Position numbers and translations under genes: made by a program | The notes under the pieces: generated by a model | Database searches by the model: none | What the model was told of the DNA's origin: nothing | Seen by the model: the letters and a program-made list of their open reading frames with translations, nothing else | Shown: positions 2,418-35,766 of the stretch, piece after piece | Position numbering within the stretch: position 1 is the stretch's first letter | Layout: each line of letters starts with the position of its first letter | Source of the DNA: a virus | Virus record (IMG/VR): IMGVR_UViG_3300043409_001932 | Location: 1 to 43,816 of that record | DNA length: 43,816 nt | Strand: one strand, 5' to 3'

Positions 2418-5400
2418 TTACCTTTGCTTTAACCTTTCAACTTCAATAGTAAGTTCATTAATCGCAGCGATTAATAATGGTACTATTTTTTCATATTGAA
2501 CGGTTAAATAATTTTCACCAGATTTGCTATTTATAACCCCATTTTCATCAACATTTCTATCGAATGGAGCTAATTTAACAGCTTCTGGTAATACCTTTTC
2601 AACATCTTGAGCTATGACACCCACTTGTCTTTCAGGGTAAGTTCTATTCATTAATCCATCAGCCAATTCATTTTGATAATACGTTACACTTCTTAAAGAT
2701 TTAACCTTATCCAATGCATTTGTAATATCATTGAAATCTTTCTTTAATCTTTCATCAGAGTAGAATGCTATAATATTACCATCAGCCCAGAATTCACCAG
2801 TACCAAGACTATTTGTTTGCCATATGGCACCACTAGCATCTTGCTTCATTGAAGAGTCAGCAAAAGTACTACTATTGTTATATGGTATGTAAGGTGTAGT
2901 CGGGTTTGTACCACCGCCACCACCACTTGCACTTGTACCTGATGTACCAGCTGTTCCAGAAACGCCAGATGTTCCAGCAGTTCCAGCATTACCATTTATA
3001 CCACTTGTACCAGAAGTTCCAGCTCTACCAGAAGTTCCAGAACTACCAGAACTACCAGAGGCACCAGCAACACCACTTGTTCCTGATGTTCCAGCTGGTG
3101 ATGTACCTGTAAGACCAACAACTCCATTTGTATCACGAACTAAATAACTAACTGGTGTTACAACAGCACCATTAAATTTAGTTTGTTGAACCCCTTGATC
3201 CCAATAGAAATAACTACCAGTAGCACCACCGTAAGCAGCATTTGATGGGTCACCAAATTTACTATTATTGTTATCCCAAAAAGCTAATGGATATATTTGA
3301 GTTGTAGCAGATAAATTAGCTGTATCAACATTTATAGTTTGGTTTGTAGTTAATGTACCACCACCAGATAAACCAGAAACACCTGTAACACTAACATACG
3401 TACCTGAAGTACCTAAGTTACCAGATATACCAGAAGTACCTGACGTTCCAGCTGTACCATTAGTTCCTGAAGAACCAGATCCAGCACTTAAACCACTACT
3501 AGCAGCAACACCCGAAGTACCTGCGGTACCAGATCTACCACTTGTTCCTTGTGAACCTGATGTATTTGAATTACCTGAAGTACCAGCAGTCCCATTTATT
3601 CCTGATGTACCAGCTGTACCATTAGATCCACTAGTATTACTTATTCCTGAAGTACCTGAGGTACCAGCAACTCCACTTGTTCCTGACGTTCCTCTAGAAC
3701 CACTTGTTCCAGAAGTATCACTCAACCCTGAAGTACCAGCAGTTCCTTTAACACCTGACGTACCATTAGAACCAGAAGTTCCTGATGTATCACTTATTCC
3801 ACTTGTTCCCGCAGTACCTCTAATTCCTGAAGTACCATGAGTACCATTTGAACCAGATGTGTTTGAAATACCTGAAGTACCTGCTGTACCATTTATTCCA
3901 CTTGTTCCAGAAGTACCATTACTACCAGAAGTATTACTTAAACCTGATGTTCCAGCAGTTCCGCTCACACCTGAAGTTCCATTACTACCAGAAGTACTTG
4001 AAATTCCTGAGGTACCAGCAGTTCCTGATACTCCACTTGTACCTTGAGAACCTGATGTACCTGAAGTATTCGCAATACCACTTGTACCAGAAGTACCATT
4101 TATACCTGACGTTCCAGCAGTTCCTGATGAACCTGATGTATCACTTATTCCACTTGTTCCAGCAGTTCCTTTAACACCTGATGTTCCTGATGAACCACTT
4201 GTACCAGATGTATCACTTATTCCTGACGTACCAGCAGTTCCTCTAATACCTGATGTTCCTTGTGAACCAGAAGTTCCTGATGTATTTGAAATACCACTTG
4301 TACCAGCAGTACCTGAGATACCAGAAGTACCATTGCTACCTGATGTGTTTGAAATTCCTGAAGTACCAGCTGTACCATTAATACCCGATGTTCCGTTTGT
4401 TCCATTTGAACCCGAAGTTGAAGATATTCCTGATGTACCTGCGGTTCCTGATACGCCACTCGTACCATTTGAACCTGACGTATTGCTTACACCACTTGTA
4501 CCAGCAGTTCCATTAATACCTGATGTACCTTGAGAACCTGACGTACCAGAAGTGTTACTCAATCCAGAAGTACCAGCAGTTCCTGAGATACCTGATGTTC
4601 CATTAGAACCAGATGTGTTAGAAATACCTGATGTACCAGCAGTTCCACTTACACCTGAAGTGCCATTTGAACCAGAAGTTCCACTTGTATTTGAAATACC
4701 ACTTGTTCCAGCAGTACCATTTATTCCTGAAGTTCCAGAAGAACCGTTACTACCTGACGTATTACTTAAACCACTTGTTCCAGCGGTTCCATTAGTTCCA
4801 CTTACACCTGAAGTGCCATTTGAACCAGAAGTATTAGATATTCCTGAAGTACCTGCGGTTCCTGAGATACCACTTGTACCTTGAGAACCTGATGTACCTG
4901 ATGTATTAGATATTCCAGAAGTACCAGCTGTTCCTGAAACACCACTTGTTCCGTTTGAGCCACTTGTGTTTGAAATACCCGAAGTTCCAGCAGTTCCATT
5001 AATACCAGAAGTTCCTTGAGAACCATTACTACCCGAAGTTCCACTTATTCCTGAAGTACCTGCGGTACCGTTGATGCCAGAAGTTCCTTGAGAACCTGAA
5101 GTTCCACTTGTTGAAGAGTTTCCAGAAGTACCAGCTGTTCCTGAGATACCTGACGTACCTGAAGTTCCAAGAGATCCAGAAGAACCCGAAGTATTACTCA
5201 ATCCAGAAGTACCAGCAGTTCCGTTTATTCCACTTGTACCAGATGTACCATTACTACCTGATGTATCACTTACACCACTTGTTCCAGCAGTTCCGTTTTT
5301 ACCTGAAGTACCAGCTGAACCAGAGGTTCCTGATGTAGCTGAAACTGTTGAAGTTCCAGCAGCAGCTGCTGTTCCAGAAGAACCAGCTGAACCTGATGTT

Positions 5401-8400
5401 CCAGATGTGTTAGATAAACCACTTGTTCCAGCAGTTCCGTTTATTCCTGAAGTACCATTTGTACCGTTACTACCTGAAGTTCCAGAGATACCAGAAGTTC
5501 CAGAAGTTCCGTTAATACCTGATGTACCATTTGTTCCGTTAGAACCAGAAGTACCACTTATACCACTTGTACCACTTGTTGAAGAAACACCAGAAGTTCC
5601 GTGAGTTCCTGATGAACCCGCACTACCTGAAGTTCCACTTGTTGAAGAGTTTCCAGAAGTACCAGCAGTTCCTGAGATACCAGAGGTTCCGTTAGTTCCT
5701 GATGAACCATTTGTATTACTTATTCCACTTGTTCCAGCGGTACCAGAAATACCTGAAGTTCCATTAGAACCAGATGTACCTGATGTATTTGCAACACCAG
5801 AAGTTCCAGCTGTTCCATTAATCCCAGAAGTTCCAGAAGAACCGTTTGATCCGCTTGTTGAAGAATTACCTGACGTACCTGCTGTACCGTTAGTTCCAGA
5901 AACACCTGAAGTACCATTACTACCTGATGTATTACTTAAACCTGAAGTACCTGCGGTACCGTTTATTCCGCTTGTACCCTGAGATCCCGATGTACCAGAA
6001 GTATCACTTATTCCACTTGTTCCAGCAGTTCCAGTTTTACCTGAAGTACCAGCTGAACCAGAGGTTCCTGATGTAGCTGAAACTGTTGAAGTTCCAGCGG
6101 CTGCTGCTGTTCCAGAAGAACCAGCTGAACCAGAAGTTCCACTTGTTGATGAAAGACCTGATGTTCCAGATGTTCCATTTATACCTGAAGTACCTTGTGA
6201 ACCATTTGAACCTGAAGTTGCACTTAAACCTGATGTGCCAGCTGTTCCGTTTATTCCAGAAGTTCCTTGTGAACCAGATGTATTACTCAATCCAGAAGTT
6301 CCAGCTGTACCAGAAACACCAGAGGTTCCGTTAGTTCCAGAAGAACCAGCTGAACCAGAAGTACCAGATGTGTTAGATAAACCACTTGTACCAGCTGTAC
6401 CATTTATCCCTGAAGTTCCATTAGTTCCGTTAGAACCAGAAGTGTTACTCAATCCTGATGTACCAGCTGTACCATTTATTCCTGATGTACCTTGTGAACC
6501 AGATGTACCAGAAGTATTAGATAAACCACTTGTTCCAGCAGTTCCCGAAACACCACTTGTTCCATGAGTACCTGAGCTACCAGCAGAACCAGAAGTTCCA
6601 CTTGTTGATGAATTACCACTTGTTCCAGCAGTTCCAGAGATACCAGAAGTACCAGCTGAACCTGAAGTTCCTGAAGTACCAGATGAACCTGATGTATCAC
6701 TTATACCAGAAGTTCCAGCAATACCAGATCTACCAGAAGTACCATTACTACCAGAAGTTCCTGAAGTAGATGAAACTGTTGATGTTCCAGCCGTTGATGC
6801 TGTCCCTGATGAACCAGCTGAACCTGAAGTTCCACTTGTATTTGAAATACCTGATGTACCAGCAGTTCCTGAGATACCACTTGTTCCTTGAGAACCAGAT
6901 GTACCTGATGTATTAGACACACCCGAAGTACCAGCAGTTCCATTAATCCCTGAAGTTCCTTGAGAACCTGACGTACCAGATGTATCACTTATTCCACTTG
7001 TTCCAGCAGTTCCAGTTTTACCTGAAGTACCAGCTGAACCAGAGGTTCCTGATGTAGCTGAAACTGTTGAAGTTCCAGCGGCTGCTGCTGTTCCAGAAGA
7101 ACCAGCTGAACCAGAAGTACCTGAAGTACTACTCAATCCTGAAGTACCTGCGGTACCACTTATTCCACTTGTTCCTGATGTACCATTAGATCCACTTGTA
7201 TTACTTATACCTGAAGTTCCAGCGGTTCCGTTAACACCACTTGTACCTTGAGAGCCAGAAGTTCCTGATGTATTACTCAATCCAGAAGTTCCAGCAGTTC
7301 CTGAAATACCAGAAGTTCCATTAGAACCAGAAGTTGCACTTAAACCTGAAGTACCTGCGGTACCACTTATACCACTTGTACCATTAGTACCATTAGATCC
7401 ACTTGTATTACTCAATCCTGAAGTTCCAGCGGTTCCGTTAACACCACTTGTACCAGAAGTTCCGTTTGTTCCAGCAGAACCAGATGAACCAGAAGTTCCA
7501 CTTGTTGAAGAATTACCAGAAGTTCCAGCGGTTCCATTTATTCCTGAAGTTCCAGATGTACCATTTGAACCAGAAGTTGCACTTAATCCAGATGTACCAG
7601 CAGTTCCGTTTATACCAGAAGTTCCTGATGATCCGTTAGATCCGCTTGTGTTTGAAATTCCTGACGTACCAGCTGTTCCATTAACACCACTTGTTCCAGC
7701 AGTACCGTTAGACCCTGAAGTGTTTGAAATACCTGATGTACCAGCAGTTCCATTTGTACCACTTATACCACTTGTACCATTAGTACCAGAACTACCAGAA
7801 GAACCAGAAGTTCCACTTGTATTGGAAATACCTGATGTACCAGCAGTTCCATTTATTCCTGATGTTCCGTTGCTACCTGATGTTCCAGAAGTATTACTTA
7901 TACCTGAAGTTCCAGCGGTACCATTTGTTCCAGAAACACCACTTGTTCCGTTAGAACCAGATGTGTTTGAAATACCTGATGTACCTGCTGTACCAGCAAC
8001 TCCACTTGTACCTGAAGTACCACGAGAACCTGATGTACCAGAAGTATCACTCAATCCTGAGGTTCCAGCAGTTCCATTAACACCAGAAGTACCTGATGAA
8101 CCATTAGATCCAGACGTATTTGATAAACCTGATGTACCTGCGGTACCTGAGATACCACTTGTACCATTGGTTCCGTTAGAACCAGATGTGTTACTTACAC
8201 CACTTGTACCAGCGGTACCATTTATACCTGAAGTACCAGCGGTACCAGAAGAACCTGATGTGTTTGAAATTCCAGAAGTTCCAGCTGTACCAGCCGTACC
8301 AGCAACTCCACTTGTACCAGATGTTCCACGACTTCCTGATGTTCCTGATGTGTTAGAGATTCCACTTGTACCAGCAGTACCGTTAATACCACTAGTTCCA

Positions 8401-11400
8401 CTTGATCCGTTTGAACCAGAATTACCTGAGGTTCCGCTTGTTCCTGATGTACCACTTACACCACTTACACCATCAGCACCACTTATACCAGTAGTACCTG
8501 AAGTACCTGATGTACCTGAAGTTGATGAAATTCCAGCAGTTCCAGCAGTTCCAGATCTACCAGCAGTTCCTGAAGTACCAGCTGAACCTGAAGTGCCTGA
8601 TGTTCCTGATGTATTAGAGATTCCACTTGTTCCAGCAGTACCAGAAGATCCAGCGGAGCCAGATGTTCCACTTGTTGAAGATATTCCACTAGTACCTGCG
8701 GTTCCGTTAGAACCAGATGTGTTACTTACACCTGATGTCCCAGCTGTACCAGAGATACCTGAAGTACCTTGAGAACCTGATGTTCCAGAAGTATTTGAAA
8801 TACCAGAAGTTCCAGCAGTACCATTTATACCAGAAGTTCCTTGAGAACCTGATGTTCCTGAAGTATTAGATATTCCACTTGTACCTGCGGTACCTGAGAT
8901 ACCTGAAGTACCAGATGATCCATTACTACCTGACGTATTACTTAAACCAGAAGTACCTGCGGTACCGTTAGTACCACTTATACCAGAAGTTCCATTACTA
9001 CCAGAAGTATTACTCAATCCTGATGTACCTGCGGTACCACTTATTCCTGAAGTACCGTTTGTTCCTGAACTACCAGCAGAACCTGATGTTCCAGAAGTAT
9101 TAGATAAACCACTCGTTCCAGCAGTTCCATTAACACCACTTGTACCTTGAGAGCCTGAAGTTCCTGATGTGTTAGACACACCTGACGTTCCAGCTGTACC
9201 ACTTACACCAGAGGTACCATTAGATCCACTTGTGTTTGAAATTCCTGAAGTACCAGCAGTTCCGTTAACACCACTAGTCCCAGAAGTACCATTAGATCCG
9301 CTTGTATTTGAATTACCGCTTGTTCCAGCAGTCCCATTTATACCAGAAGTTCCAGCAGTTCCTGATGAACCAGCTGAACCAGAGGTTCCACTTGTTGAAG
9401 AATTTCCTGAGGTTCCAGCTGTTCCTGAGATACCTGAAGTACCATTACTACCAGATGTACCAGAAGTGTTAGATAAACCTGAAGTTCCAGCCGTACCAGA
9501 CACACCTGAAGTTCCAGAAGTTCCATTAGATCCAGAAGTGTTAGATATACCTGACGTTCCAGCGGTTCCGTTTGTACCACTTACTCCACTTGTACCGTTA
9601 GTTCCTGAACTACCAGCAGAACCAGAAGTTCCGCTTGTATTGGAATTACCTGAAGTACCTGCGGTACCATTAATACCAGAAGTACCATTGCTACCAGATG
9701 TTCCAGAAGTATTGCTTAATCCAGATGTACCAGCAGTTCCATTTATACCACTTGTTCCTTGAGAACCTGATGTTCCAGCAGTATTAGATATTCCACTTGT
9801 ACCTGCTGTCCCTGAGATACCTGAAGTACCATTGCTACCTGATGTGTTAGATATTCCTGAAGTACCTGCGGTGCCATTTATACCACTTGTACCATTTGTT
9901 CCGTTACTACCAGAAGTATTTGAAATACCACTTGTACCAGAAGTTCCTGATACACCACTTGTTCCGTTTGAACCACTTGTGTTTGAAATTCCAGATGTTC
10001 CAGCAGTACCAGAAATACCAGATGTACCATTAGTACCGTTTGAACCTGATGTATTAGATACACCACTTGTTCCAGCGGTACCAGAAATTCCAGAAGTTCC
10101 ATTACTACCAGAAGTGTTAGAAACCCCTGAAGTACCTGCGGTACCATTTGTGCCACTCACACCTGAAGTTCCGTTAGAACCAGAAGTGTTGCTCAATCCT
10201 GATGTACCAGCAGTACCATTAACACCTGAAGTTCCTTGAGACCCTGATGTACCACTTGTTGAAGAGTTTCCAGAAGTACCAGCTGTTCCTGAGATACCTG
10301 AAGTACCACTTGATCCGTTAGAACCAGAAGTATTAGATATTCCTGATGTACCAGCTGTACCATTTATTCCTGATGTACCACTTGATCCGTTAGACCCTGA
10401 AGTGTTACTCAATCCTGATGTACCAGCAGTACCATTTGTTCCACTTATACCTGAAGTTCCATTTGAACCACTTGTGTTTGAAATTCCAGATGTTCCAGCT
10501 GTTCCTGAAACACCACTTGTTCCTTGAGAACCTGATGTTCCAGCAGTATTTGAAATACCAGAAGTACCAGCTGTTCCTGAAATACCAGATGAACCTGAAC
10601 TACCCGATGTTCCTGAAGTTGATGAATTTCCTGATGTACCTGCGGTGCCATTTATACCTGAAGTTCCAGAAGTACCATTACTACCAGATGTATTACTCAA
10701 TCCTGATGTACCAGCAGTACCATTTGTTCCACTTATACCAGATGTACCAGCAGTTCCAGAAGATCCAGCGGAGCCAGATGTTCCACTTGTTGAAGAAGCA
10801 CCCGATGTTCCAGCAGTACCATTAACACCTGAAGTTCCTTGAGACCCTGATGTTCCCGATGTGTTAGACACTCCACTTGTACCAGCGGTACCAGAAATAC
10901 CACTTGTACCATTTGTTCCGTTAGAACCACTAGTATTACTTAACCCTGAAGTTCCAGCAGTTCCAGAGATACCTGAAGTTCCGTTTGTTCCTGAACTACC
11001 AGCAGAACCTGATGTTCCACTTGTTGATGAATTTCCTGAGGTTCCAGCAGTTCCATTTATTCCTGAAGTTCCTGATGTTCCATTACTACCAGATGTATTA
11101 CTTATTCCACTTGTTCCAGCAGTTCCGTTAGTTCCTGATACACCACTTGTTCCACTTGAACCAGATGTATTTGAATTACCAGAAGTTCCAGCAGTTCCAT
11201 TTATACCAGAGGTTCCTTGAGAACCAGAAGTTCCACTTGTATTTGAGATACCTGAAGTACCCGCTGTACCAGCAACTCCACTTGTGCCAGATGTACCATT
11301 AGATCCAGAAGTATTAGATAACCCTGAGGTTCCAGCTGTTCCACTTATACCAGAAGTACCATTTGTTCCGTTAGAACCACTTGTGTTAGATATTCCTGAT

Positions 11401-14400
11401 GTACCTGCGGTTCCATTAATACCACTTGTTCCTTGAGAACCTGATGTTCCAGAAGTATTAGATATTCCACTTGTACCTGCGGTACCTGAGATACCACTTG
11501 TACCATTACTACCTGAAGTGCCAGCAGAACCAGATGTTCCTGATGTATTAGATATTCCTGAAGTACCTGCGGTTCCTGAGATACCTGATGTACCATTAGA
11601 ACCAGAAGTATTAGATATTCCTGATGTACCAGCGGTTCCTGAGATTCCACTTGTTCCATTAGATCCAGATGTGTTAGATATTCCTGAAGTTCCAGCAGTT
11701 CCATTAGTACCACTTTCACCAGAAGTTCCGTTTGAACCAGATGTGTTAGATATTCCTGAAGTACCTGCGGTACCATTTATTCCTGATGTACCAGATGAAC
11801 CTGAAGTGCCTGATGTGTTACTTAATCCTGAAGTACCTGCGGTACCAGCAACTCCACTTGTGCCAGATGTACCATTAGATCCTGATGTATTTGATAAACC
11901 AGATGTACCAGCCGTTCCAGATTCACCACTTGTTCCGTTTGTACCATTAGTACCAGAAAGACCCGAAGTACCATTACTACCAGATGTATTACTCAATCCA
12001 GATGTACCAGAAGTACCTGTTGTTCCACTTTTGCCACTTGTACCTGACTCACCACTGGTTCCACTTTCACCGCTTGTTCCTGAAGTACCTGTTGTACCAG
12101 ACTCACCTGAAGTTCCTGATTCTCCACTTGTTCCATTAGTACCACTTGTTCCACTTTCTCCACTTGTGCCAGATTCACCTGATGTACCATTTGATCCAGA
12201 AGTACCACTCTCTCCACTTGTTCCTGATGTTCCAGTTGTTCCTGATTCACCAGAAGTACCATTAGTTCCAGTTGTACCAGATTCTCCTGAAGTTCCTTTT
12301 GTTCCAGAAGTTCCAGATATACCAGAAATTCCTGATATACCACTTACACCATTTAAACCATTTGTTCCAGATGTTCCGCTTTCACCGCTTGTTCCAGATT
12401 CACCGCTTGTACCAGATTCACCAGAAGTTCCAGATTCACCAGAAGTACCATTTGTTCCAGTTGTACCAGATTCACCAGAAGTTCCACTTGTACCTGACTC
12501 TCCGCTTGTTCCGTTTGTACCACTTTCACCTGACGTTCCTGATGTACCTGTAGTCCCAGATTCTCCACTCGTTCCACTTTCACCATATGTTCCACTTGTT
12601 CCTGTTGTTCCAGACTCACCAGATGTACCTGAAGTACCCAATTCACCTGACGTACCATTACTTCCAGTTGTACCAGACTCACCTGAGGTTCCAGCAACAC
12701 CACTTGTACCTGAAGTTCCATTTGTACCGCTTTTACCTGACGTACCAGACTCACCACTTGTTCCATAAGTACCGTTTGTCCCTGATTCACCTGATGTACC
12801 GTTTGTTCCTGAAGTTCCACTTTCACCACTTGTTCCTGATTCTCCAGATGTACCACTTTCACCACTAGTACCATTAGTTCCAGAAGTACCACTTTCACCT
12901 GAGGTTCCGTTAGAACCCGATGTACCTGATTCTCCTGAAGTCCCTGATTCTCCGCTTGTTCCTGAAGTACCTGATTCACCTGAAGTTCCACTTTCACCAC
13001 TTGTTCCAGCAGTTCCACTTGTACCAGATTCACCTGAAGTTCCAGATTCACCTGATGTACCATTTGATCCAGAAGTACCACTCTCTCCACTTGTTCCGTT
13101 TGTACCAGACTCACCTGATGTACCATTTGTTCCTGACGTACTTGATTCACCTGAAGTTCCACTTGTACCTGATTCACCAGATGTACCATTTGTTCCTGAC
13201 GTACTTGATTCACCTGAAGTACCACTTGAACCGCTTTCTCCACTTGAACCTGATGTTCCTGATGAACCACTTGAGCCAGAAGTTCCAGATATTCCAGAAA
13301 TTCCTGACACACCACTAACCCCATTTAAACCATTTGTTCCTGAAGTTCCTGATTCTCCACTTGTTCCAGATTCACCTGAAGTTCCAGATTCACCTGAAGT
13401 TCCAGATTCCCCTGTAGTACCAGATTCTCCGCTTGTACCTGAGGTTCCACTTGTACCTGACTCTCCGCTTGTTCCGTTTGTTCCAGACTCACCTGATGTC
13501 CCAGCAGTTCCTGAAGTTCCAGATTCTCCTGAGGTTCCTGATTCACCACTTGTACCCGATTCTCCTGAAGTACCTGTTGTTCCAGACTCACCACTCGTTC
13601 CACTTTCTCCTGAAGTTCCACTTTCACCTGAAGTTCCTGATTCTCCTGATGTGCCGTTTGTGCCAGAAGTTCCACTTTCACCTGACGTTCCAGTTGTACC
13701 TGATTCTCCTGATGTACCATTTGTACCACTTGTACCAGATTCTCCTGAAGTTCCAGATTCACCTGATGTACCAGATTCTCCGCTTGTTCCTGACTCTCCA
13801 GAAGTTCCACTTTCACCTGAAGTTCCGTTTGTACCTGATTCTCCTGAAGTACCATTTGTACCTGATTCTCCTGAGGTTCCAGACTCACCTGATGTTCCAT
13901 TAGTTCCAGTTGTCCCTGATTCACCACTTGTTCCGTTTGTACCCGATGTACCAGACTCACCTGATGTACCATTAGATCCACTTGTACCTGAAGTTCCTTT
14001 TGTTCCAGAAGTTCCAGATATACCAGAAATTCCTGACACACCACTAACCCCATTTAAACCATTTGTACCAGATGTTCCACTCTCACCACTTGTTCCAGAT
14101 TCACCTGATGTTCCACTCTCACCGCTTGTTCCAGATTCACCACTTGTTCCAGATTCACCTGAAGTTCCAGATTCACCTGAAGTTCCACTTTCACCTGATG
14201 TTCCATTTGTTCCTGATTCACCACTTGTACCGTTTGTACCTGATTCACCTGAGGTTCCTGATTCACCACTTGTACCTGATTCTCCTGATGTACCAGATTC
14301 TCCGCTTGTTCCTGACTCTCCAGCAGTTCCACTTTCACCTGATGTTCCAGACTCACCTGATGTACCATAAGTTCCTGAAGTTCCTGATTCTCCACTTGTT

Positions 14401-16301
14401 CCTGATGTTCCAGCAGTTCCACTTTCACCTGATGTTCCATTTGTTCCTGATTCACCACTTGTACCCGATGTACCTGTTGTTCCGCTTTCACCTGAAGTTC
14501 CGTTACTACCTGATTCTCCAGAAGTTCCTGATTCCCCTGAGGTACCTGATTCTCCTGAAGTTCCACTTGTACCTGACTCTCCGCTTGTTCCGTTTGTTCC
14601 AGACTCACCTGATGTCCCAGCAGTTCCTGAAGTTCCAGATTCTCCTGATGTACCAGACTCACCTGACGTACCAGATTCGCCATTTGTACCTGACTCACCA
14701 GATGTACCTGAAGTACCAGTTGTACCAGATTCCCCTGAAGTACCATTAGTACCTGAAGTGCTTGATTCACCACTTGTACCTGATGTTCCAGTTGTACTTG
14801 ATTCACCTGATGTTCCATTAGTTCCAGTTGTTCCAGATTCACCAGAAGTACCATTTGTACCTGAAGTGCCTGATATACCAGAAATACCTGATACACCACT
14901 TACACCATTTAAACCATTTGTACCAGAGGTACCAGATTCACCTGACGTACCACTCTCACCACTTGTACCAGATTCTCCTGAAGTTCCTGATTCACCAGAA
15001 GTTCCTGATTCACCACTTGTACCACTTTCACCAGAAGTTCCTGATTCACCACTTGTACCACTTTCACCTGAAGTTCCTGATTCACCACTTGTACCACTTT
15101 CACCTGAAGTTCCTGATTCACCACTTGTACCACTTTCACCTGAAGTTCCTGATTCACCACTTGTACCAGATTCTCCTGAAGTACCAGTAGTTCCTGATTC
15201 ACCACTTGTACCAGATTCTCCTGAAGTACCAGTAGTTCCTGATTCACCACTTGTACCAGATTCTCCTGAAGTACCAGTAGTTCCTGATTCACCACTTGTA
15301 CCACTTTCACCTGAAGTTCCTGATTCACCTGAAGTACCATTCGTACCAGTTGTTCCTGACTCACCAGATGTACCACTTGTTCCAGATTCACCTGATGTTC
15401 CGCTTTCCCCAGATGTACCACTTTCACCACTTGTTCCAGATTCACCTGAAGATCCGCTTTCACCACTTGTTCCAGCAGTTCCACTCTCACCAGAAGTTCC
15501 ACTCTCACCACTTGTTCCAGATTCTCCTGATGTACCTGATTCACCAGAAGTTCCTGATTCTCCAGAAGTTCCCGAAGTACCAGCAGTTCCTGATTCACCA
15601 GATGTTCCAGTTGTTCCAGATTCACCAGACGTTCCATTTGTTCCATAAGAACCAGATGTACCTGACATACCAGATGTCCCAGAAATTGCACCTAAAGCAA
15701 CTAAATTAAAATAAGAAGGGTTGTTATAAGGATCTTCCGATCCAGTTGTTGTTGTAGTTACAATATATGTGCTACCATCAAAATAAAATAATTCACCAAC
15801 GTTATAAATAATTGGCGCATAATCACCAGTCCAAGTATCAATAAAAGCACCATTTGCTCCAGAACTACCCGAAGTACCTGATTCCCCTGAAGTTCCGCTT
15901 TCTCCTGAAGTTCCAGAAGTACCTGATTCGCCTGAAGTTCCGCTTTCTCCTGATGTTCCTGAAGTACCCGATTCCCCTGAAGTACCAAAAGTCCCAGATT
16001 CACCACTTGTACCTGAAGTACCAGCAACAAAATCCGAATATGTAAATTGACCCGAAGTCGGATCATACGTTACTAAATACGTGGGTGTTACATTAAGGGT
16101 TAATTCTTGGTTTTCCCATTGGGATGTTGTACTGTTATAAACTAAAATATTACCACCAGTTACACCAGTGGTAATAATTACGTCTGATAAATCATTAAGA
16201 CCTAAATTTAGGATAGCTTGATTTAGATTATCAAAATTTGCATCTAACTCACCAAAGGTTAGAGGTCTCTGAAGAACACTTCTTAAATATATTACTGCCA
16301 T
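2418..16301 (-). CDS. Giant collagen-like tail fibre with C-terminal Peptidase_S74 chaperone
   Basis: A 4627-residue fibre protein. Residues 1-93 are a globular head with [15 protein letters not shown], a motif common at the start of phage tail-fibre proteins and likely the virion attachment end. Residues 94 to about 4300 are almost pure Gly-X-Y triplets ([12 protein letters not shown]), broken near DNA 15690-15850 by a carbohydrate-binding-like island. After [11 protein letters not shown] comes a short beta-rich domain, a second small triplet stretch, then [35 protein letters not shown] and [21 protein letters not shown], the hallmarks of the S74 intramolecular chaperone. In that family the domain trimerises the fibre and cleaves itself before the Ser of SDERLK (here about Ser4515). 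No stop or frame break occurs over 13.9 kb. A CTATTTAT box sits 24 nt before the ATG and a terminator follows. It probably acts in host recognition. Confidence 0.93.
15001..15144 (-). repeat. 36-bp tandem repeat, four copies
   Basis: Four head-to-tail 36-bp units beginning gttcctgattcacc on the plus strand. Copies 2-4 are identical and copy 1 differs by one base (15033). Each encodes 12 residues of GES/GTS. Exactness against the synonym-rich background points to recent slippage or unequal recombination. Confidence 0.9.
15145..15279 (-). repeat. 45-bp tandem repeat, three identical copies
   Basis: Three identical 45-bp units abut the 36-bp array. Each is a 36-bp-like block plus gtaccagta and encodes 15 residues containing [14 protein letters not shown]. 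The adjacency of two exact arrays marks 15.0-15.3 kb as the youngest expansion in the gene. Confidence 0.9.
15690..15850 (-). other. Non-repeat island in the fibre: carbohydrate-binding-like module
   Basis: About 53 residues interrupt the triplets near the fibre's N-terminal end: [20 protein letters not shown], then [17 protein letters not shown] and a [10 protein letters not shown] strand. The W-x-G-x-Y ... Y-x-x-G-x-x-x-Y-x-G-x-x-Y-x-x-x ... P-x-x-x-x-W/F pattern resembles CBM5/12-like modules that often sit between collagen-like segments of phage fibres. The resemblance was judged by eye. Confidence 0.5.
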
Positions 16302-16351: not shown

Positions 16352-18808
16352 CTACAGCATCTTAACTATTATTTTCTCTTTTTTAATATCATAGTTAATA
16401 TTAAACGATCCTTCTTTAGGCATACCGTTCTTTAATAGCTCTTCCGACATTGGATCTTCTATATATTTTTGGATAGTCCTCTGTAACTCCCTGGCACCGT
16501 AATTCTTATCATATCCAAGCTCAGATAATTTTTCTTTTGCTGATTTTGTTATCTTAAAACTATAGTTAGATTCTTTTAATCTTTCAGCTAACTCATTCAT
16601 TTGCAAATCTATAATCTTAATTATTTCTTCTTTACCTAAATGATTAAAATAAATTAAATCATCCAAACGATTTAAAAATTCTGGTTTAAAAGTTTTCTTC
16701 AAGCTTTTTTCAATTATAGCTTGTGATGATTTTATTGTATCTTCATCAGTTGAGAAACCAATCTTAACACCGAAATCTTGAACATCTTTTAAACCAACAT
16801 TTGATGTCATAATAATAATAGTATTTTTAAAATTAATTTTTCTACCACTACCATCTGTTAAATGTCCCTCATCTAATAGTTGTAATAAAATATTAAATAA
16901 ATCTGGATGAGCTTTTTCAATTTCATCAAATAAAATGAGTGAGTATGGTTTATTTTTAACCTTTTCGGTTAATTGTCCACCTTCATTATAACCAACATAT
17001 CCTGGAGGAGCACCAATTAATTTAGAAATATTAAATTTTTCGGAATACTCTGACATATCAATACGGATCATAGCATCTTCACTACCAAATACTTTTTCAG
17101 CTAAAACTTTAGCTAATTCTGTTTTACCAACCCCAGTAGGCCCTATGAATAAGAATGAACCAATTGGTCTATTTTGTCTACGAATACCAGTTCTATTACG
17201 TTTAATAGCTGCTGAAACTTTACCAATAGCTTCATCTTGACCTATTACGGTATTTGACAATTCTTTATCAATGTCAATTAATTTTTTAATTTCGTTTTGT
17301 GAAATTTTACTAATAGGTATTCCAGTCATCATAGATACAACCTCACAAATCATTTCGTCCGTGACAATCATACGTTTATTATTCAAACCATCTTTCCAAA
17401 TTTTTGTTTCTTTATCAAGTTCACTTGTTGTTTTCTTTTCAAGATCTCTTAAATCAGCAGCCTTTTCATAATTTTGGCTTTTAACAACATCAGTTTTTAA
17501 TTTCTTAATTTCTTTAACTTTGTCCTCCAACTCCTTAATTTTTTGTGGTGGTTTAATACTAACCTGAGTTCTAGAACCAGCCTCATCTAAGATATCAATT
17601 GCTTTATCTGGAAATTCACGATTTGTTATATATCTGTCAGATAGTCTAATAATCTCATCAATAGCATCATCCGTATATTCCACTTTATGAAAATCCTGAT
17701 ATTTTTCACGAATATTCATAAGGATATCCTTTGTTTCAGCTAATGTTGGTGGGTTAACCATAACTTTTTGGAAACGTCTATCCAACGCACCATCTTTTTC
17801 AATATGCTCACGATATTCATCTAAAGTTGTAGCACCAATACACTGTACCTCACCACGAGCTAAAGCTGGTTTAAATACATTTGCAGCATCTAATGAACCA
17901 GAAGAATTACCAGCACCAACTAAGGTATGTAATTCATCTACAAATAAAATAATATTCGGGTTATCCCTAACTTCTTCCAATAAACCTTTAATTCTTTCTT
18001 CAAATTGACCACGGTATTTAGTACCAGCTACCATTGAAGTTAAATCTAAACTCATTAATCTTTTGCCTTGAAGTGGTCTAGGACATTCATTTTTAGCTAT
18101 TTTAATAGCCAAACCTTCAGCAATTGCTGTTTTACCAACACCAGGATCACCAATCAATACTGGATTATTTTTTTTCCTACGTGTTAAAATTTGTGCAACA
18201 CGCTCAACCTCAGCCTCTCTACCAATAATTGGATCTAATTTATCATCATTAGCTAAAGCAGTTAAATCACGACTGTAATTATCTAAAATAGGTGTTTTTG
18301 ATTTAACTTTACTTTGTTGGTTTTCGTTTGATGTATTTCTTTTATTACTATCTTCATCTGAAAAATATGTAGATGATACATTTAATTGTTTTAATTTTCT
18401 CTGTATAAATGTTTTAGATATACTGTAATCCTTTATTATTTTTATAATAGCCATATCTAAATCAAATGAAACCGTGAAGAATAGCTCAGCACTAATAAAT
18501 TCTTCTTTATTTTTTGCTTTTGAACATTGCTTAAGAACCTCTTGTAAAGGAACTTCAAATGTTAATATACTTTCATTATTTATCTCACTATCGTTATCGG
18601 ATTGTTTTTTTATAAAATTATCAACATCAGTTAGAAGTAAATCATAATCTGAAATTTTATCTTTTAGAATTTCACGAATAACATTATCTGACACCATGAT
18701 ACCATATAAAACGTGTTCTAACCTTAATTTACTATCTCTATATTGAAGAGCTGTTTCACGACCGACTGTAAAGGCTTGTCTTAGTTCATTTGACATTTTT
18801 TCTTTCAT
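16352..18808 (-). CDS. clpC: ClpC-type AAA+ unfoldase
   Basis: An 818-residue Hsp100/Clp ATPase, full length for ClpC. It has an N-terminal Clp_N-like domain ([13 protein letters not shown] onward, 1-150), AAA-1 with Walker A GDPGVGKT (220-227), Walker B ILFVDE and pore loop KYRGQF, and a short ClpC-type middle segment (about 421-470). AAA-2 has Walker A GPTGVGKT (556-563), Walker [13 protein letters not shown] and pore loop [19 protein letters not shown] (676-685) supplies the IGF tripeptide that docks Clp ATPases onto ClpP, so it may feed host ClpP. The text around it resembles Bacteroidetes ClpC, suggesting acquisition from a host. The ATG at 18808 is chosen because an in-frame TTG at 18856 is the -33 box of the gene's own promoter. 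It is the only gene between the fibre and that promoter. Confidence 0.93.
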
Positions 18809-18825
18809 ATTATATCTATTTTTGA

Positions 18826-18856
18826 CAAAGGTAACTAATGGATTGACATTTTCCAA
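18826..18856 (-). promoter_or_regulatory. Bacteroidetes-type promoter for clpC
   Basis: On the minus strand TTG (18856-18854), a 20-nt spacer, then TACCTTTG (18833-18826), matching the TTG / TAnnTTTG consensus. The clpC ATG begins 17 nt further on. It overlaps the divergent promoter at 18843-18873. Confidence 0.8.
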
Positions 18857-18873
18857 ATAATTTATTACTTTTG
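18843..18873 (+). promoter_or_regulatory. Bacteroidetes-type promoter for the 18894 gene
   Basis: TTG (18843-18845), a 20-nt spacer, then TACTTTTG (18866-18873); the start codon lies 20 nt downstream. Its -33 box sits inside the spacer of the opposing clpC promoter and the reverse is also true. Confidence 0.8.
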
Positions 18874-18893: not shown

Positions 18894-19121
18894 ATGGAAA
18901 CAGTATTAATAAATTTAAAAAATGGTAAGGTTCAAACTTATGAAAATGTTCGAACAACGGTAATTAGTGGTAATTATTTAATTTTAGTTACCAAACAAGG
19001 TGAAATTAACCCTAATGATGAAACAGATGCTTATGTTTTAACGACAAATGAGATTATTGATTTAAATGAAGTGCGTAATTACACGGTAAAAACAAAAACA
19101 AAAAGTTATGGTAAAGAGTAA
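18894..19121 (+). CDS. Hypothetical small protein
   Basis: A 75-residue protein of no recognised family. It appears to be mostly beta (METVLINLKNGKVQTYENV, then ISGNYLILVTKQGE) with a Lys/Thr-rich tail KTKTKSYGKE; no signal peptide or membrane segment. It is the first gene after a strong host-type promoter, which suggests early expression. It overlaps the KTSC gene by 14 nt and so forms a two-gene transcript with it. Confidence 0.75.
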   Translation: METVLINLKNGKVQTYENVRTTVISGNYLILVTKQGEINPNDETDAYVLTTNEIIDLNEVRNYTVKTKTKSYGKE

Positions 19122-19347
19122 AAACTACAACGGAAACAAAATTATCTGCGAATATGATAGTTCTAATCTAAAAGGGGCTGAGTATGATACCATAACTAAA
19201 AAACTAAATGTTACGTTTGGTAATGGTATGAAGTACGAGTATGATGATGTTTCGCATGAAACATTTGCCGAATTAAATTTATCTGAAAGCCAAGGTAAAT
19301 ACTTTAACCAAAAAATAGCTAAAAATTTTACATACAGAAAAATATAA
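19108..19347 (+). CDS. KTSC domain protein
   Basis: 79 residues, almost entirely one KTSC domain (PF13619): SSNLKGAEYD, a strand pair LNVTFGNGMKYEYDDV, then the signature end GKYFNQKIAKNFTYRKI. The family's function is not firmly known; in phages and bacteria it occurs alone or fused to nucleic-acid enzymes. The start overlaps the preceding gene by 14 nt, so translational coupling is likely. No gene follows for 78 nt, where two CTATTTAT boxes lie. Confidence 0.85.
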   Translation: MVKSKNYNGNKIICEYDSSNLKGAEYDTITKKLNVTFGNGMKYEYDDVSHETFAELNLSESQGKYFNQKIAKNFTYRKI

Positions 19348-19425: not shown

Positions 19426-20103
19426 ATGTCAAGTACAAAAATAGACCAACTTCCACTATTTCCTGGAACCGACACCTCAGGAGTATATCTTGTTGTAAAC
19501 GATAAAACCGAAACCACAACATATAAAATTAAAAAAGAAACGTTACTTGGTACATCAGGTAATTCTGGTAATTCAGGTACAAGTGGTGTAAATGGTATCT
19601 CAGGAACGTCTGGTATATCAGGTACAAGTGGTGTAAATGGTATCTCAGGAACGTCTGGTATATCAGGTACAAGTGGTGTAAATGGTTTATCTGGTACATC
19701 TGGTACAAGTGGTGTAAATGGTATCTCAGGAACGTCTGGTATGTCAGGTACAAGTGGTTTAAATGGTTCATCTGGGACATCTGGCGCTGATGGGGTTTCA
19801 TCTGACCAGTATCATTGGAGAAATGGGGATGAAATTATGATCTCATCAGGTCAAATTATAACAATTGGGTCGGATTACATGTTAATTGATAGTGCGTTAC
19901 TTACTGAAGCTGCAACTAACGATGGCTTTGGGTCATCAGTCACGATAGCAGGTAAAACATATAGTAGAGACGGTAAACTATCTGTTTTTGGTGACTTTGT
20001 TGTTTATGATTCAGACATCCTAAACAATGGTCAGATAAGAGTTGAGGGTGGTCTCATATTAGAAGGGGATACTAACATAATAGGAAATGGAATAATAATT
20101 TAA
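19426..20103 (+). CDS. Short collagen-like fibre/appendage protein
   Basis: 225 residues in three parts. Residues 1-42 ([20 protein letters not shown] and [16 protein letters not shown]) form a small beta-rich head. Residues 43 to about 125 are Gly-X-Y triplets (GTS, GVN, GIS), the same composition as the giant fibre but tiny. The rest is a beta-rich tip with repeating strands ([17 protein letters not shown], then [18 protein letters not shown] and NIIGNGIII) that looks like the start of a beta-helix. It has no S74 chaperone. It is 22 nt upstream of the beta-helical fibre gene and probably the partner of that virion appendage. Triplets continuous from about 43 suggest a trimer. Confidence 0.8.
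19576..19665 (+). repeat. 45-bp perfect tandem duplication in the triplet region
   Basis: Two identical 45-bp copies starting ggtacaagtggtgtaaatgg, followed by a partial third (19666 on). Each encodes 15 residues, [15 protein letters not shown]. Confidence 0.9.
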
Positions 20104-20125: not shown

Positions 20126-22603
20126 ATGCAATACATTCAACTACAAGCACAAGCTACGGGAGCAACACCAACACCTGGAGATGGTAAGTATAACTTCTTT
20201 ATTGATGAGGCTGATGGTCAACCTAAAATAAAAGATGATAATGGTACTATTATCACTGTTAATGGTGTAACACAGACTTTAACATCGTTAACATATTTCG
20301 CTTTTACTGAGCTTATAACAAATAGTGAGTTAACAAAGGGTTATTTCTATGAAATAAACGATTATGAAACTTGCTACGATCAACCAGACTTTACAGCAAC
20401 CGATAGTGCGGTAACTACTGGTAATTATAAAACCTCTGGAGAGGTTCAACCAATAATCGTTTTTGCGACAGCAACAAACGAAATTTCGATAGACGCTTTC
20501 CAAGCGGCTTACCCAAAAGATAAGATAAAATATGATTGGACGTTTGGTACCACAGAAGTAACTAGTAACCCAGCTAAAGGTAGAATTATCGAAAGAATTG
20601 ATGAGTTCAATAATAGAACTGATTACGATCACAGAAATATTTTATTCAAAAGATACACCATGTATTACCCAAACCAAAAATTACCTGGTACATTAACTAT
20701 GGTTGATGGTGCGGTTACTGGTGTGGACACCGAATTTAACAGTTTATCTGTTGGTAATCGAATCCATATTACTGATTCTGATTTAGAATATATGATAACA
20801 GCAATTACTGGTGATACTACTATGACTGTAACTGGTATAACATATAATAACGTAAACGGTTCTTATTTTTCAACAACCAATTCAATAACTGGTTATAAGA
20901 GAAACAACACTAGTAACCCAACAGGTTTTACCGAACATTACACATTTGATTTAGATAATGATGATAATTATTATATTAATAATTATATCGGTAACTATGG
21001 TAATTTAAGAACCTGGGATGCTAACGATTTTTATTTAGCCAACAATGTGTTTATTGGTGGTGATTATATTAACAACAAAATTGGTGATAATTCATACAAT
21101 AACACATTTGACGATGATTGTGATAGTAATGTTATCGGTACTGGTTTTTATAATAACACAACTAACGATGATTTTGATGATAATGTTATTGGTGATAATT
21201 TTAATAACAATATAATAACAACCGATTTTGATGATAATCAAATAGGTAATAGTTTTTATAACAATATCATACTTTGTGATAATGATTTTGATGATAATCA
21301 AATAGGTAATAATTTTAATAACAATCTAATAAGTTGTGAAGATTTTTATAGAAACCAAATTGGTAATGATTTCAATGGTAATACTATAACTGGTAGCGAT
21401 GATTTCCAGAATAATGTTATTGGTAACCAATTTAACAATAATATCATTACACAAGAGTTCATTAAAAATAACATAGCCAATGGTTATAACCAAAATGAAA
21501 TCCTCGTTGATTTTATAGGTAATGTTGTGGGTAATGGATTTAATAACAATAACATTACTGGTGGTGAGTTTTATGATAATATCATTGGTCAGTACTTTCA
21601 AGACAACACAATAGCTGCTAATTTTAACAGAAACTCAATTGGTGGTAGTTTTTATAGCAATGATATTATTTACACTGGGTCTACAATTGATTTTATAGAC
21701 AATCAAATATTTTATGATTTTGAAAATAATACCATAACTGTAGATTTTGAAGCCAATAAAATAGGTGGTGATTGTAAAGGCAATATGTTTATCCGTGATG
21801 TAAATGACAATGGTTCTGTATCAGATAATAATATCGGATATTATATGACGGGGAATGAAATCTCAGGTGCTTTTGGAAATAATATTATCGGTAATTATTT
21901 CCGAAATAATGATATATTTGGTGCGTTTTATAAAAACCAAATAGGTGTTTGGTTTGAAAGTAATACAACCCAAGATGAATTTGCTTATAATGTTATTTTA
22001 AATTATTTTTATAATAACACCATAGGTGAATATTTTGGTTACGGTTATGATTCAGATCGTGGTAACGTAATTGGTAATACTTTTGAGGATAATACAATCA
22101 GAGATCATTTTTACGATAACAAAATTTCTGATGGTTTTAGTAATAACTTAACCCCAACCCATTTCCAATATAATGAAATTAAATACCCTGTTGATGGTGT
22201 TGACTTTGCTAGTAATAACAAAAATATCGATACTTTTAGCCGCAACTCACCAACTTCAACAGCATCTAATGGTAACATTGATGTTGGTGGTGGCACTTCA
22301 AGTGGCGATGGTCAAGGAGCTACATTCCAAGTTAATGTTTCTGGTGGTACAATTCAGAATGTGGTTCTTTTATCACCTGGATATGATTACGAAGTTAGTG
22401 ATACGATAACAATACCATCTAGTTCATTTAATGGATCTGGTGATTTAATAATAACAGTCACTGCTGTTACTCCTGAAGCTATGGTTGTCTCTGATTACAA
22501 TTGTAAAATAAGTAAATCGGTTGAAGGCGGTTTATTAATCTCTACCGAAACATTAAGTGGTCTTTATACTCAGTCTGACATAACAGAAATATTCCTAGAC
22601 TAA
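20126..22603 (+). CDS. Beta-helical fibre/spike protein with N/D-rich repeats
   Basis: An 825-residue structural protein. Residues 1-270 are a head domain (MQYIQLQAQATGATPTPGDG, then GKYNFFIDEADGQPKIKDD). About 275-690 is a long series of roughly 11-residue rungs of the form N-x-I-G-x-x-F-x-x-N-x-I (DDNVIGDNFNNNII, DDNQIGNSFYNNII, ENNTITVDFEANKIG), with stacked Asn, Ile and Phe, as expected for a parallel beta-helix with an asparagine ladder. A C-terminal beta domain follows a Gly-rich linker (NGNIDVGGGTSSGDGQGAT). It has no catalytic signature or S74 domain. It follows the short collagen-like gene by 22 nt. Likely a tail fibre or spike binding host polysaccharide; a depolymerase role cannot be shown. 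Confidence 0.8.
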   Translation: MQYIQLQAQATGATPTPGDGKYNFFIDEADGQPKIKDDNGTIITVNGVTQTLTSLTYFAFTELITNSELTKGYFYEINDYETCYDQPDFTATDSAVTTGNYKTSGEVQPIIVFATATNEISIDAFQAAYPKDKIKYDWTFGTTEVTSNPAKGRIIERIDEFNNRTDYDHRNILFKRYTMYYPNQKLPGTLTMVDGAVTGVDTEFNSLSVGNRIHITDSDLEYMITAITGDTTMTVTGITYNNVNGSYFSTTNSITGYKRNNTSNPTGFTEHYTFDLDNDDNYYINNYIGNYGNLRTWDANDFYLANNVFIGGDYINNKIGDNSYNNTFDDDCDSNVIGTGFYNNTTNDDFDDNVIGDNFNNNIITTDFDDNQIGNSFYNNIILCDNDFDDNQIGNNFNNNLISCEDFYRNQIGNDFNGNTITGSDDFQNNVIGNQFNNNIITQEFIKNNIANGYNQNEILVDFIGNVVGNGFNNNNITGGEFYDNIIGQYFQDNTIAANFNRNSIGGSFYSNDIIYTGSTIDFIDNQIFYDFENNTITVDFEANKIGGDCKGNMFIRDVNDNGSVSDNNIGYYMTGNEISGAFGNNIIGNYFRNNDIFGAFYKNQIGVWFESNTTQDEFAYNVILNYFYNNTIGEYFGYGYDSDRGNVIGNTFEDNTIRDHFYDNKISDGFSNNLTPTHFQYNEIKYPVDGVDFASNNKNIDTFSRNSPTSTASNGNIDVGGGTSSGDGQGATFQVNVSGGTIQNVVLLSPGYDYEVSDTITIPSSSFNGSGDLIITVTAVTPEAMVVSDYNCKISKSVEGGLLISTETLSGLYTQSDITEIFLD

Positions 22604-28955: not shown

Positions 28956-28986
28956 TTGGTATTGTCATAACTTTTTATTAGTTTTG
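28956..28986 (+). promoter_or_regulatory. Bacteroidetes-type promoter for dNMP kinase
   Basis: TTG (28956-28958), a 20-nt spacer, then TAGTTTTG (28979-28986); the ATG is 14 nt on. Spacer length is the same as at the promoters at 18.8 and 34.3 kb. Confidence 0.8.
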
Positions 28987-33734: not shown

Positions 33735-34304
33735 TTATGCAATAATTTTTAAAAACTCTGATGTTGACGAGGATAATTGTTTTAATTGATCAAAACCATA
33801 AAAAGCGGCTTTACCAACCATCCTTAATCTATCTGAAATAACTAAATCAGATTTTGAATATCCGTTTATAATAGCAGGTGAACCTAACCCGCAAATGTAA
33901 TACTCCCTTTTTGATACCATACAAATGAATATTGTTTTACGATATGTTCTACCATAAACTAAAGGTAGGAATCCAAATGAGAAGGTACTAACATCAACAC
34001 TTCTACTACCTGTTATTTTATTGATGTGCGGAATTTTAATATCTGACACATTGTTGTAATCAACAAAATCAACACCTAAGAATTGCTCCATAACCGTTTC
34101 ACCAGCCACTTGCATAAAAGGTTTTCTGAAAAGATTAATCTTTTCATCATCAGTTAACTTTCGATTCAATTTAACTTCTTGTTTGTTAATTAATCTGATA
34201 ATTGAACTTGTCAATTTACCATAATGCTCATCATCCAGAGTTATTTTTTTAAACATAGGGATATGAGGGACGAATCCGTTTTGGAATGTTATTTTATTAT
34301 TCAT
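33735..34304 (-). CDS. Possible nuclease-like phage protein
   Basis: 189 residues. I see no named family, but the layout (GETVMEQFLGVDFVDY; a basic RSVDVSTFSFGFLPLVYGRT; strands KTIFICMVSKREYYICGLGS) resembles phage PD-(D/E)XK-fold proteins, with an early Glu, a D-V-S strand and a following strand pair. This is weak. A longer frame upstream of the ATG at 34304 (a Phe/Tyr-rich stretch) is rejected because a host-type promoter at 34309-34339 would lie inside it. The ATG comes 4 nt after the -7 box, so the mRNA may be leaderless. It is divergent from the helicase. Confidence 0.65.
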   Translation of the reverse strand: MNNKITFQNGFVPHIPMFKKITLDDEHYGKLTSSIIRLINKQEVKLNRKLTDDEKINLFRKPFMQVAGETVMEQFLGVDFVDYNNVSDIKIPHINKITGSRSVDVSTFSFGFLPLVYGRTYRKTIFICMVSKREYYICGLGSPAIINGYSKSDLVISDRLRMVGKAAFYGFDQLKQLSSSTSEFLKIIA

Positions 34305-34308
34305 GAGA

Positions 34309-34339
34309 CAAAAGTAAAAAATTATTTGGTAATAAACAA
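34309..34339 (-). promoter_or_regulatory. Bacteroidetes-type promoter (minus arm of a bidirectional pair)
   Basis: On the minus strand TTG (34339-34337), a 20-nt spacer, then TACTTTTG (34316-34309). The downstream ATG is 4 nt away. Confidence 0.8.
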
Positions 34340-34356
34340 AATATTTACTATTTTTG
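34326..34356 (+). promoter_or_regulatory. Bacteroidetes-type promoter for the helicase
   Basis: TTG (34326-34328, part of TTTG), a 20-nt spacer, then TATTTTTG (34349-34356); the ATG lies 24 nt downstream. Geometry relative to the opposing promoter is identical to that at 18826-18873. Confidence 0.8.
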
Positions 34357-34380: not shown

Positions 34381-35766
34381 ATGAGTAAATACACAGACGA
34401 ACAATTAAACTTCATCAATTATAAGGGTGATAAGTCAATTATCCTATCAGCAACAGCTGGTTCAGGTAAAACTCACTCAACTGTTGGTAGGTTGAATGAA
34501 ATGATTGAAAATGGAGTAGACCCATCTAGAATAATTTTTTTTAGTTTCACAAATGATGCTGTTAATGAGTTAAGATCTAGAGTTAAACATGATGTTAAAA
34601 TAACTACAATACATAGTTTTACTAGTAGTTTACTTGGTAAGATGGGTTTATTCAAACCTATTGTCACATTTTATGATTTTACCAATTGGTATAAAGAAAA
34701 ATATAAACCACATATCAAAGATCCTCTTAAAATAAAACAAATATACGCCAAGAACGTAGATAAGTTTTACGAAGAGGGTAGCCAAATATCAGCAACATTT
34801 TCATCTTTTAAATTACAAAACGCTGATAATATAAAATCACCAAAACCACCATATTATGATGAATACTCTGCGTTTATTAGAGATGTTAAAGGTAGAGATT
34901 TTTCTGATATGTTAATTGATACTGAAAAATTTAGTAGACACCCAGAGTATAAAAAATATTTTGAGGGGTTATACGATTATATTTTTGTTGACGAATATCA
35001 AGACACTTCAACTCTCCAAATGAAAATATTACTATCAATTAAGGCTAAACAGTACCATCTAATTGGTGATAAAAATCAATCTATATACGGGTTTTCTGGC
35101 GCAAATTGCGAGGGTATTGAAAATTTATTAATAAATGGTTATGATACAATTACCGACATGACCCTAACCAAGAACTTTAGGTCTCATAAAAAAATTGTTG
35201 AAAATGCTAATAAATATAGCAATTTAGTTGCAATACCTCACCATGAGGATGATGGTTATATTCATGATAAATTGATAAGTGAGTTTGATATGTATGAGAT
35301 GATGAAAGATGGTAAACCATTAACTATTTTAGCTAGATCAAACAGTAGTATTAAAGATATTGAAAAGCATTGTTTAAAAGATAAAATTAAAATGAGGTAC
35401 TTCAATTTTATATCACCTCAAGATTTGGATAAAATAAAAGAGGGTAAAATTAACCCATCTTTAAAGAAGAAAATTGAATCTGTTGCACCATATCATGGTA
35501 ATACTTTTGGGTTGATTAAATTTATTGAGGATAACAAAAACTCAGATGTTTTTATAACCAGTATACATAAGAGTAAAGGTCGTGAATTCCCAAGATGTAT
35601 TATTGTTAATTCAATAGACCCTGAAATGTTATTAGAGAGTGAATTTGCTTCAGAGGAATATACTTACATTAAAGATGATGGTGATATTGATATTGAGGCT
35701 AGAAACATTCACTACGTGGCTGTAACCAGACCTAAAGAAGAATTATACTTCTTAGTATATGAATAA
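34381..35766 (+). CDS. UvrD/Rep-type SF1 DNA helicase
   Basis: A 461-residue ATP-dependent DNA helicase, compact for the family. Motifs in order: Q-like YTDEQLNFI (4-12); I SATAGSGKT (23-31); Ia FFSFTNDAVNELRSR; Ib TTIHSF (75-80); II IFVDEYQDTS (201-210); III HLIGDKNQSIYGFSGA (226-241); IV LTKNFRSHKKI (262-272); V VFITSIHKSKGREFP (390-404); VI YVAVTRPKEELYFL (445-458). All catalytic residues are present. It probably serves phage replication or recombination. It has a host-type promoter, and a bidirectional terminator follows 2 nt after the stop. Confidence 0.93.
   Translation: MSKYTDEQLNFINYKGDKSIILSATAGSGKTHSTVGRLNEMIENGVDPSRIIFFSFTNDAVNELRSRVKHDVKITTIHSFTSSLLGKMGLFKPIVTFYDFTNWYKEKYKPHIKDPLKIKQIYAKNVDKFYEEGSQISATFSSFKLQNADNIKSPKPPYYDEYSAFIRDVKGRDFSDMLIDTEKFSRHPEYKKYFEGLYDYIFVDEYQDTSTLQMKILLSIKAKQYHLIGDKNQSIYGFSGANCEGIENLLINGYDTITDMTLTKNFRSHKKIVENANKYSNLVAIPHHEDDGYIHDKLISEFDMYEMMKDGKPLTILARSNSSIKDIEKHCLKDKIKMRYFNFISPQDLDKIKEGKINPSLKKKIESVAPYHGNTFGLIKFIEDNKNSDVFITSIHKSKGREFPRCIIVNSIDPEMLLESEFASEEYTYIKDDGDIDIEARNIHYVAVTRPKEELYFLVYE

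Follow-up and report, generated by a model that had tools for sequence, protein, structure and literature searches.

The window analysed in this work is a viral record of 43,816 bases, from a large virus infecting Bacteroidota, nearly one third of which is taken up by a single minus-strand ORF of 4627 amino acids (2418-16301). The minus strand also carries the gene of an 818-aa ClpC-type AAA+ protein (16352-18808; Pfam AAA_2 and ClpB_D2-small, phrog_4871). Facing away from clpC, on the plus strand, are a 75-aa ORF (18894-19121), which family searches assigned to no family, and the gene of a 79-aa KTSC-domain protein (19108-19347; PF13619). A tail-fibre-like protein with collagen-like repeats and, apart from it, an array of diverged repeats of 54-60 nt were also noticed (window positions 19519-19784 and 21080-22153). 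The DNA between clpC and the plus-strand genes contains the first of two 48-bp modules (18826-18873), in which two predicted promoters overlap back to back. The clpC promoter, on the minus strand, has its -7 box (TACCTTTG) at 18826-18833 and its -33 box (TTG) at 18854-18856, and the rightward, plus-strand promoter has its -33 box (TTG) at 18843-18845 and its -7 box (TACTTTTG) at 18866-18873. The initial annotation had placed this module between clpC and the KTSC gene. The clpC side of this assignment was correct, but on the other side the KTSC gene is not directly adjacent: the 75-aa ORF comes first and the KTSC gene second.

The second module (34309-34356) lies between the minus-strand gene of a 189-aa protein (33735-34304) and the plus-strand gene of a 461-aa UvrD/Rep-type helicase (34381-35766; PF00580, phrog_1967). 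The leftward promoter has its -7 box (TACTTTTG) at 34309-34316 and its -33 box (TTG) at 34337-34339 on the minus strand, whereas the helicase promoter has its -33 box (TTG) at 34326-34328 and its -7 box (TATTTTTG) at 34349-34356 on the plus strand. Protein alignment showed that the 189-aa protein is conserved beside the helicase. Its structure was modelled with a pLDDT of 92.5; comparison of the model with PDB structures by Foldseek gave no match below an E value of 0.001, and a second structural comparison returned mostly restriction-endonuclease-like folds with Z scores up to 6.4. This resemblance of the model must be regarded as weak, the Z scores being below the level that would count.

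At both sites the 48-bp pattern described in the initial annotation was found exactly where it had been reported, and with the reported offsets: counted from the first base of the module, the minus-strand -7 box (CAAAnnTA) occupies positions 0-7, the plus-strand TTG 17-19, the minus-strand -33 box (CAA) 28-30 and the plus-strand TAnnTTTG 40-47. The -33 boxes of each module thus sit inside the spacer of the opposite promoter. From centre to centre the two boxes are separated by 11 bp, which is about one helical turn; that this spacing is relevant is speculation. The pattern matched twice in the window and not at all in 100 dinucleotide shuffles.

The housekeeping promoters of Bacteroidota are characterized by the elements TAnnTTTG (-7) and TTTG (-33) (PMC7366714). 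All four arms of the two modules fit TAnnTTTG with TTG or TTTG about 20 nt upstream, and each arm is located 4-24 nt before an ATG. Judged from these boxes, each module consists of two putative Bacteroidota sigma-A-type promoters (TTTG-N20-TAnnTTTG) placed back to back. The single-promoter pattern TTG-N20-TAnnTTTG had six matches in the window compared to 1.5 expected, a number that none of 100 shuffles reached. Four of the six are the arms of the two modules. The fifth (28956-28986, plus strand; TTTGGT...TATTAGTTTTG) is a one-way promoter of this class; it precedes a dNMP kinase gene, lies 3' of a terminator-like hairpin, and can be considered the single-arm counterpart of the modules. The sixth match, at 26346, is inside a coding region and is probably a chance match.

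The same pattern was frequent in two large relatives, G001 and G015 (298,833 and 320,934 bases), which had 100 and 84 TTG-N20-TAnnTTTG sites, respectively. Directly before ORFs there were 71 such sites in G001 and 50 in G015, as opposed to 0-14 at any other spacer length, and on these counts TTG-N20-TAnnTTTG would be the phage group's own promoter class. In the region of G001 around 204-218 kb many near-identical promoters (TTTGCACATTAAATTTATTnCACTTATCTTTG) stand on the plus strand before successive small genes, and there is a second array on the minus strand; by their sequence, the TTTGCACATTAAATTTATTnCACTTATCTTTG promoters look like one co-expressed phage promoter family.

Transcription start sites were predicted by placing the -7 box at -12 to -5, as found for Flavobacterium psychrophilum (PMC9723704). 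The predicted start sites are 18821 (clpC) and 18878 (rightward) in module 1 and 34304 (leftward) and 34361 (helicase) in module 2, i.e. they are 57 bp apart in each. The predicted leaders are 13 nt for clpC, 16 nt for the 75-aa ORF and 20 nt for the helicase gene, whereas the start site of the 189-aa protein gene coincides with the first base of its ATG, and its transcript would be leaderless. In most orthologs of this gene the predicted leader is likewise 0-2 nt, which lends independent support to the leftward box of module 2 being a real promoter element. A class of putatively leaderless genes was also observed in G001, where the ATG follows the -7 box by exactly 4 nt, at the predicted +1, in 13 of the 71 promoters before ORFs, compared with a reported share of about 5.5% leaderless mRNAs in F. 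psychrophilum (PMC9723704).

Relatives of the clpC and helicase loci were collected by protein sequence alone, with no use of the promoter pattern. Upstream of clpC the 48-bp outer distance was kept in all of ten loci (L001-L010), in which the identity of the protein was 66-81%; in seven further loci (L011-L016 and L018) the clpC-side -7 box was present and there was no scorable pair at the threshold used. Upstream of the helicase gene the distance was exactly 48 bp in L081-L085 and L089, and L086 had the same distance with degenerate boxes. Compared with the window modules, box positions were 94-100% identical in the relatives, while non-box or spacer positions were 43-67% identical. Thus, the pattern is retained in related phages at both loci. 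An alignment of 15 helicase loci, several of which had been picked by the pattern, contained no indel within the module. The lack of indels is due in part to the overlap itself, because an insertion or deletion anywhere within the module disrupts the spacer of one promoter or of both. Another cluster of strict divergent promoter pairs in L001-L089, 14 in number, had distances of 63-64 bp and possibly represents one orthologous locus. Among the phage records searched, the best helicase match was 27% identical, the 189-aa protein had no match, and no cultured relative with a published transcriptome was found.

We scanned 2.9 million viral contigs with the 18 fixed bases of the two promoters held constant and only their mutual offset varied. 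The numbers of matches were 1, 4, 84, 54, 17 and 6 at distances of 46, 47, 48, 49, 50 and 52 bp, respectively. The 84 matches at 48 bp cannot be taken as a virus-wide 48-bp class, as a single orthologous helicase locus accounted for 59 of the 80 loci listed at this distance, and grouping of the loci by flanking protein gave nearly equal numbers at 48, 49 and 50 bp (12, 13 and 9, with 3 at 47 bp). These context counts indicate that overlapping viral promoters favour a frame of about 48-50 bp, in which 48 bp is not unique. G015 had seven divergent pairs with distances from 34 to 64 bp, and every one of them fell at 46-50 bp, several with imperfect boxes. From the spread across viruses, with raw counts used as context counts at 46 and 52 bp, two sites of a phage would be expected to have equal distances in about 23% of cases, and the equal spacing of the two window modules is therefore not remarkable by itself. 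A parallel set of modules in a 49-bp frame was noticed in L178-L231, for example TTTGAAACTACCAAA cores upstream of a gene coding for about 1140 aa, together with a set upstream of a gene coding for about 685 aa; each of these sets is conserved within its own phage group.

A much sharper preference for 48 bp was found in bacteria. The bacterial genomes are MAG-based, and strict consensus patterns of the kind used here miss degenerate modules. Among the matches listed in the bacterial genome scan most were from Paludibacteraceae or from Bacteroidales without further classification. Individual genomes had several different loci, and the core of these matches was TTTGCATATATGCAAA, often a perfect palindrome. 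In 16 genomes of one Paludibacteraceae genus of gut bacteria there were 145 modules at 48 bp, distributed over 14 genomes, as against 2, 11, 0 and 2 at 47, 49, 50 and 56 bp; in the window both modules are at exactly 48 bp. We tentatively refer to this genus as Candidatus Colicola-like, since a module of the seed genome (G132) is identical to one in Candidatus Colicola equi (L281). The 48-bp class is frequent in this genus, and most of the family nearly lacks it: in 51 family genomes we counted 44 modules at 48 bp (three genomes contributed 42 of these), none at 47 bp and 5 at 49 bp, and 60 genomes of the order yielded only the seed and two single matches.

The preference was also seen when all divergent gene pairs were considered. 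Of the 59 divergent gene pairs in 659 kb from one bacterial genome, 7 were exactly at 48 bp and none at any other distance between 41 and 57 bp, and in 140 kb of a second genome 6 of 12 pairs were at 48 bp. Among strict bacterial divergent pairs within 400 bp, 12 of 45 had exactly this distance (p about 1e-18 relative to a uniform spread), and a separate 617-kb bacterial set, with the focal matches masked, had its sole peak at 48 bp. A Flavobacterium contig, which had only three strict promoter pairs within 400 bp, showed no enrichment. The genes flanking the bacterial modules include those for TsaD (tRNA modification), chorismate synthase, dehydroquinate synthase, thioredoxin, an RNB-domain ribonuclease, a class I tRNA synthetase, a uridine-kinase-family protein, a Kdo transferase and a folate enzyme. 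Since most genes beside the modules that we inspected in detail are housekeeping genes unrelated to one another, the arrangement looks like a general promoter architecture and not like a regulon. The recurrence of the 48-bp layout in the genus suggests that it is a standard, apparently undescribed way of starting two genes from one spot. The phage and the bacterial genus share the frame, and the genus is not a known host of the phage. Taken with the conservation in relatives and the leader lengths, including the conserved leaderless start, the recurrence of the exact layout among phages as well as in the bacterial genus supports the proposal of the initial annotation that the sites are divergent promoters of repeated fixed geometry.

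Part of the preference for 48 bp can be traced to the sequence of the promoters. The one-way bacterial promoters read AaatATTTGcatATnTcaAAAAAAagtaGTAcCTTTGCA, with the half-site TTTGcATAT, which means that the bidirectional core corresponds to two -33 half-sites placed head to head with the central ATAT in common. To quantify self-compatibility, the one-way matrix was superposed on its own reverse complement and the loss was computed for each distance. For the bacterial matrix the loss was smallest at 48 bp among distances from 34 to 55 bp. With the matrix of phage G015 the minimum among distances below 63 bp was at 47-48 bp, and the one-way consensus of phage G001 had no optimum at 48 bp. Economy of sequence can thus account for 48 bp being better than 46, 47, 49 and 50 bp, but it does not explain why the promoters overlap so tightly. 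As a complete explanation self-compatibility was rejected, because in the bacteria it picks 56 bp equally, a distance that is hardly used (the two modules in 16 genomes mentioned above).

We think it probable that the module is a compact bidirectional promoter with a shared core, to which RNA polymerase is bound either way, one molecule at a time. In this model two housekeeping-sigma (sigma-A / sigma-ABfr-type) promoters would have merged their -33 elements into a palindrome-like core, TTTG-N8-CAAA, leaving the -7 boxes outermost and the predicted start sites 57 bp apart. The host RNA polymerase would bind the shared core facing one gene or the other, never both ways at once, and two neighbouring genes could be served from a single site. 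Occupancy by one polymerase at a time would follow from the geometry, because each polymerase would cover the -33 box of the other promoter. The overlap would also lock the geometry, since no indel could occur without disrupting the spacer of one promoter or of both. The model needs no programmed switch from one gene to the other. A more far-reaching version of the model, to which we give an even chance, is that the modules form a distinct class of bidirectional promoters with a shared -33 core and an invariant 48-bp frame, which is standard genome-wide in one Bacteroidota genus or more and is also employed by large phages of Bacteroidota. The frame would then be functionally selected, for instance through mutually exclusive binding on a single helix face, and would couple divergent genes.

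It is instructive to compare the modules with the bidirectional promoters described by Warman, Grainger and coworkers in E. coli, Salmonella and other prokaryotes. In both cases a short pseudo-symmetric stretch of DNA serves RNA polymerase in both directions and exclusive binding is expected (PMC12825309, PMC10268837). However, the Warman/Grainger promoters share a pseudo-symmetric -10 element and their start sites are separated by 7-25 bp, 18 bp being the commonest distance (PMC10268837), whereas the modules share the -33 region, have their -7 boxes outermost and have start sites predicted to be 57 bp apart. As they differ in both defining features, the modules fall outside the Warman/Grainger class, although they may work alike, and a definition based on 7-25 bp would miss them. 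Both arms carry the consensus boxes of sigma-ABfr-type promoters, as in B. fragilis and B. thetaiotaomicron, and the -7 box is also that of flavobacteria (PMC7366714, PMC9723704), but those papers describe single promoters and the term 'bidirectional' was not found in their text. Two divergent promoters overlap also in plasmid pLS20, where they are described as a single regulated switch with DNA looping (PMC4207663), unlike the repeated fixed geometry of the modules, for which no regulator was identified. We found no description of Bacteroidota bidirectional promoters of this arrangement in the literature searched, of which the coverage was limited and included few subscription journals. If the model is true, bidirectionality evolved in Bacteroidota around a different promoter element (-33 instead of -10), and start-site surveys limited to 7-25 bp overlook the shared -33 class.

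The initial annotation went further and suggested a built-in balance or switch, meaning that the overlap was selected for alternate expression of clpC and the KTSC genes, and of the helicase and the 189-aa protein. The geometry does imply exclusive binding and both modules are conserved in relatives, but bacterial modules of the same geometry stand before mostly unrelated housekeeping pairs, and neither a regulator nor opposing functions of the genes could be recognized. Moreover, the basal activity of five bidirectional E. coli promoters was too low for polymerases to compete, and competition set in only when one direction was strongly activated (PMC12825309). A switch is therefore conceivable but not indicated, and we consider it unlikely.

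Slightly less probable still is that the TTTG-N8-CAAA core serves mainly as the operator of a dimeric regulator and overlies both -33 boxes by chance. The frequent perfect palindromes of the bacterial core would fit such a site. On the other hand, the half-site belongs to the one-way consensus and occurs alone in one-way promoters, where CAA is present at the symmetric place in only about 10%, the flanking genes, mostly unrelated housekeeping genes, form no regulon, and the phage core is different (TTTGGT...ACCAAA). For these reasons we rejected an operator or a regulon as the explanation of the bacterial core.

We regard it as similarly doubtful that crowding is responsible, i.e. that small divergent intergenic regions force the promoters to overlap and the 48 bp is incidental. 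In the phages the intergenic regions are short, and by gene context 48, 49 and 50 bp are used about equally, as crowding would predict. The bacterial modules, however, occupy intergenic regions of 41 to 420 bp, so space is not limiting there, and yet the 145 modules at 48 bp outnumber those at 47, 49, 50 and 56 bp to the extent given above. For the bacteria crowding is strongly disfavoured.

The initial annotation had noted that the sequences between the boxes differ, which is a fair description: of the 30 non-box positions, 14 are identical when both modules are read the same way and 16 when one of them is flipped (shuffle p 0.04). That the modules arose as copies of each other by inverted duplication, which alone would explain their equal spacing, is very improbable and was rejected because the similarity is too weak: there is a 55-nt inverted match at 75%, and one arm is common to both modules when flipped (20 of 21 nt identical, CCAAATAATTTWTTACTTTTG), but the flipped non-box identity is hardly above the unflipped one, and about 1% of the promoter-arm pairs in related phages match equally well.
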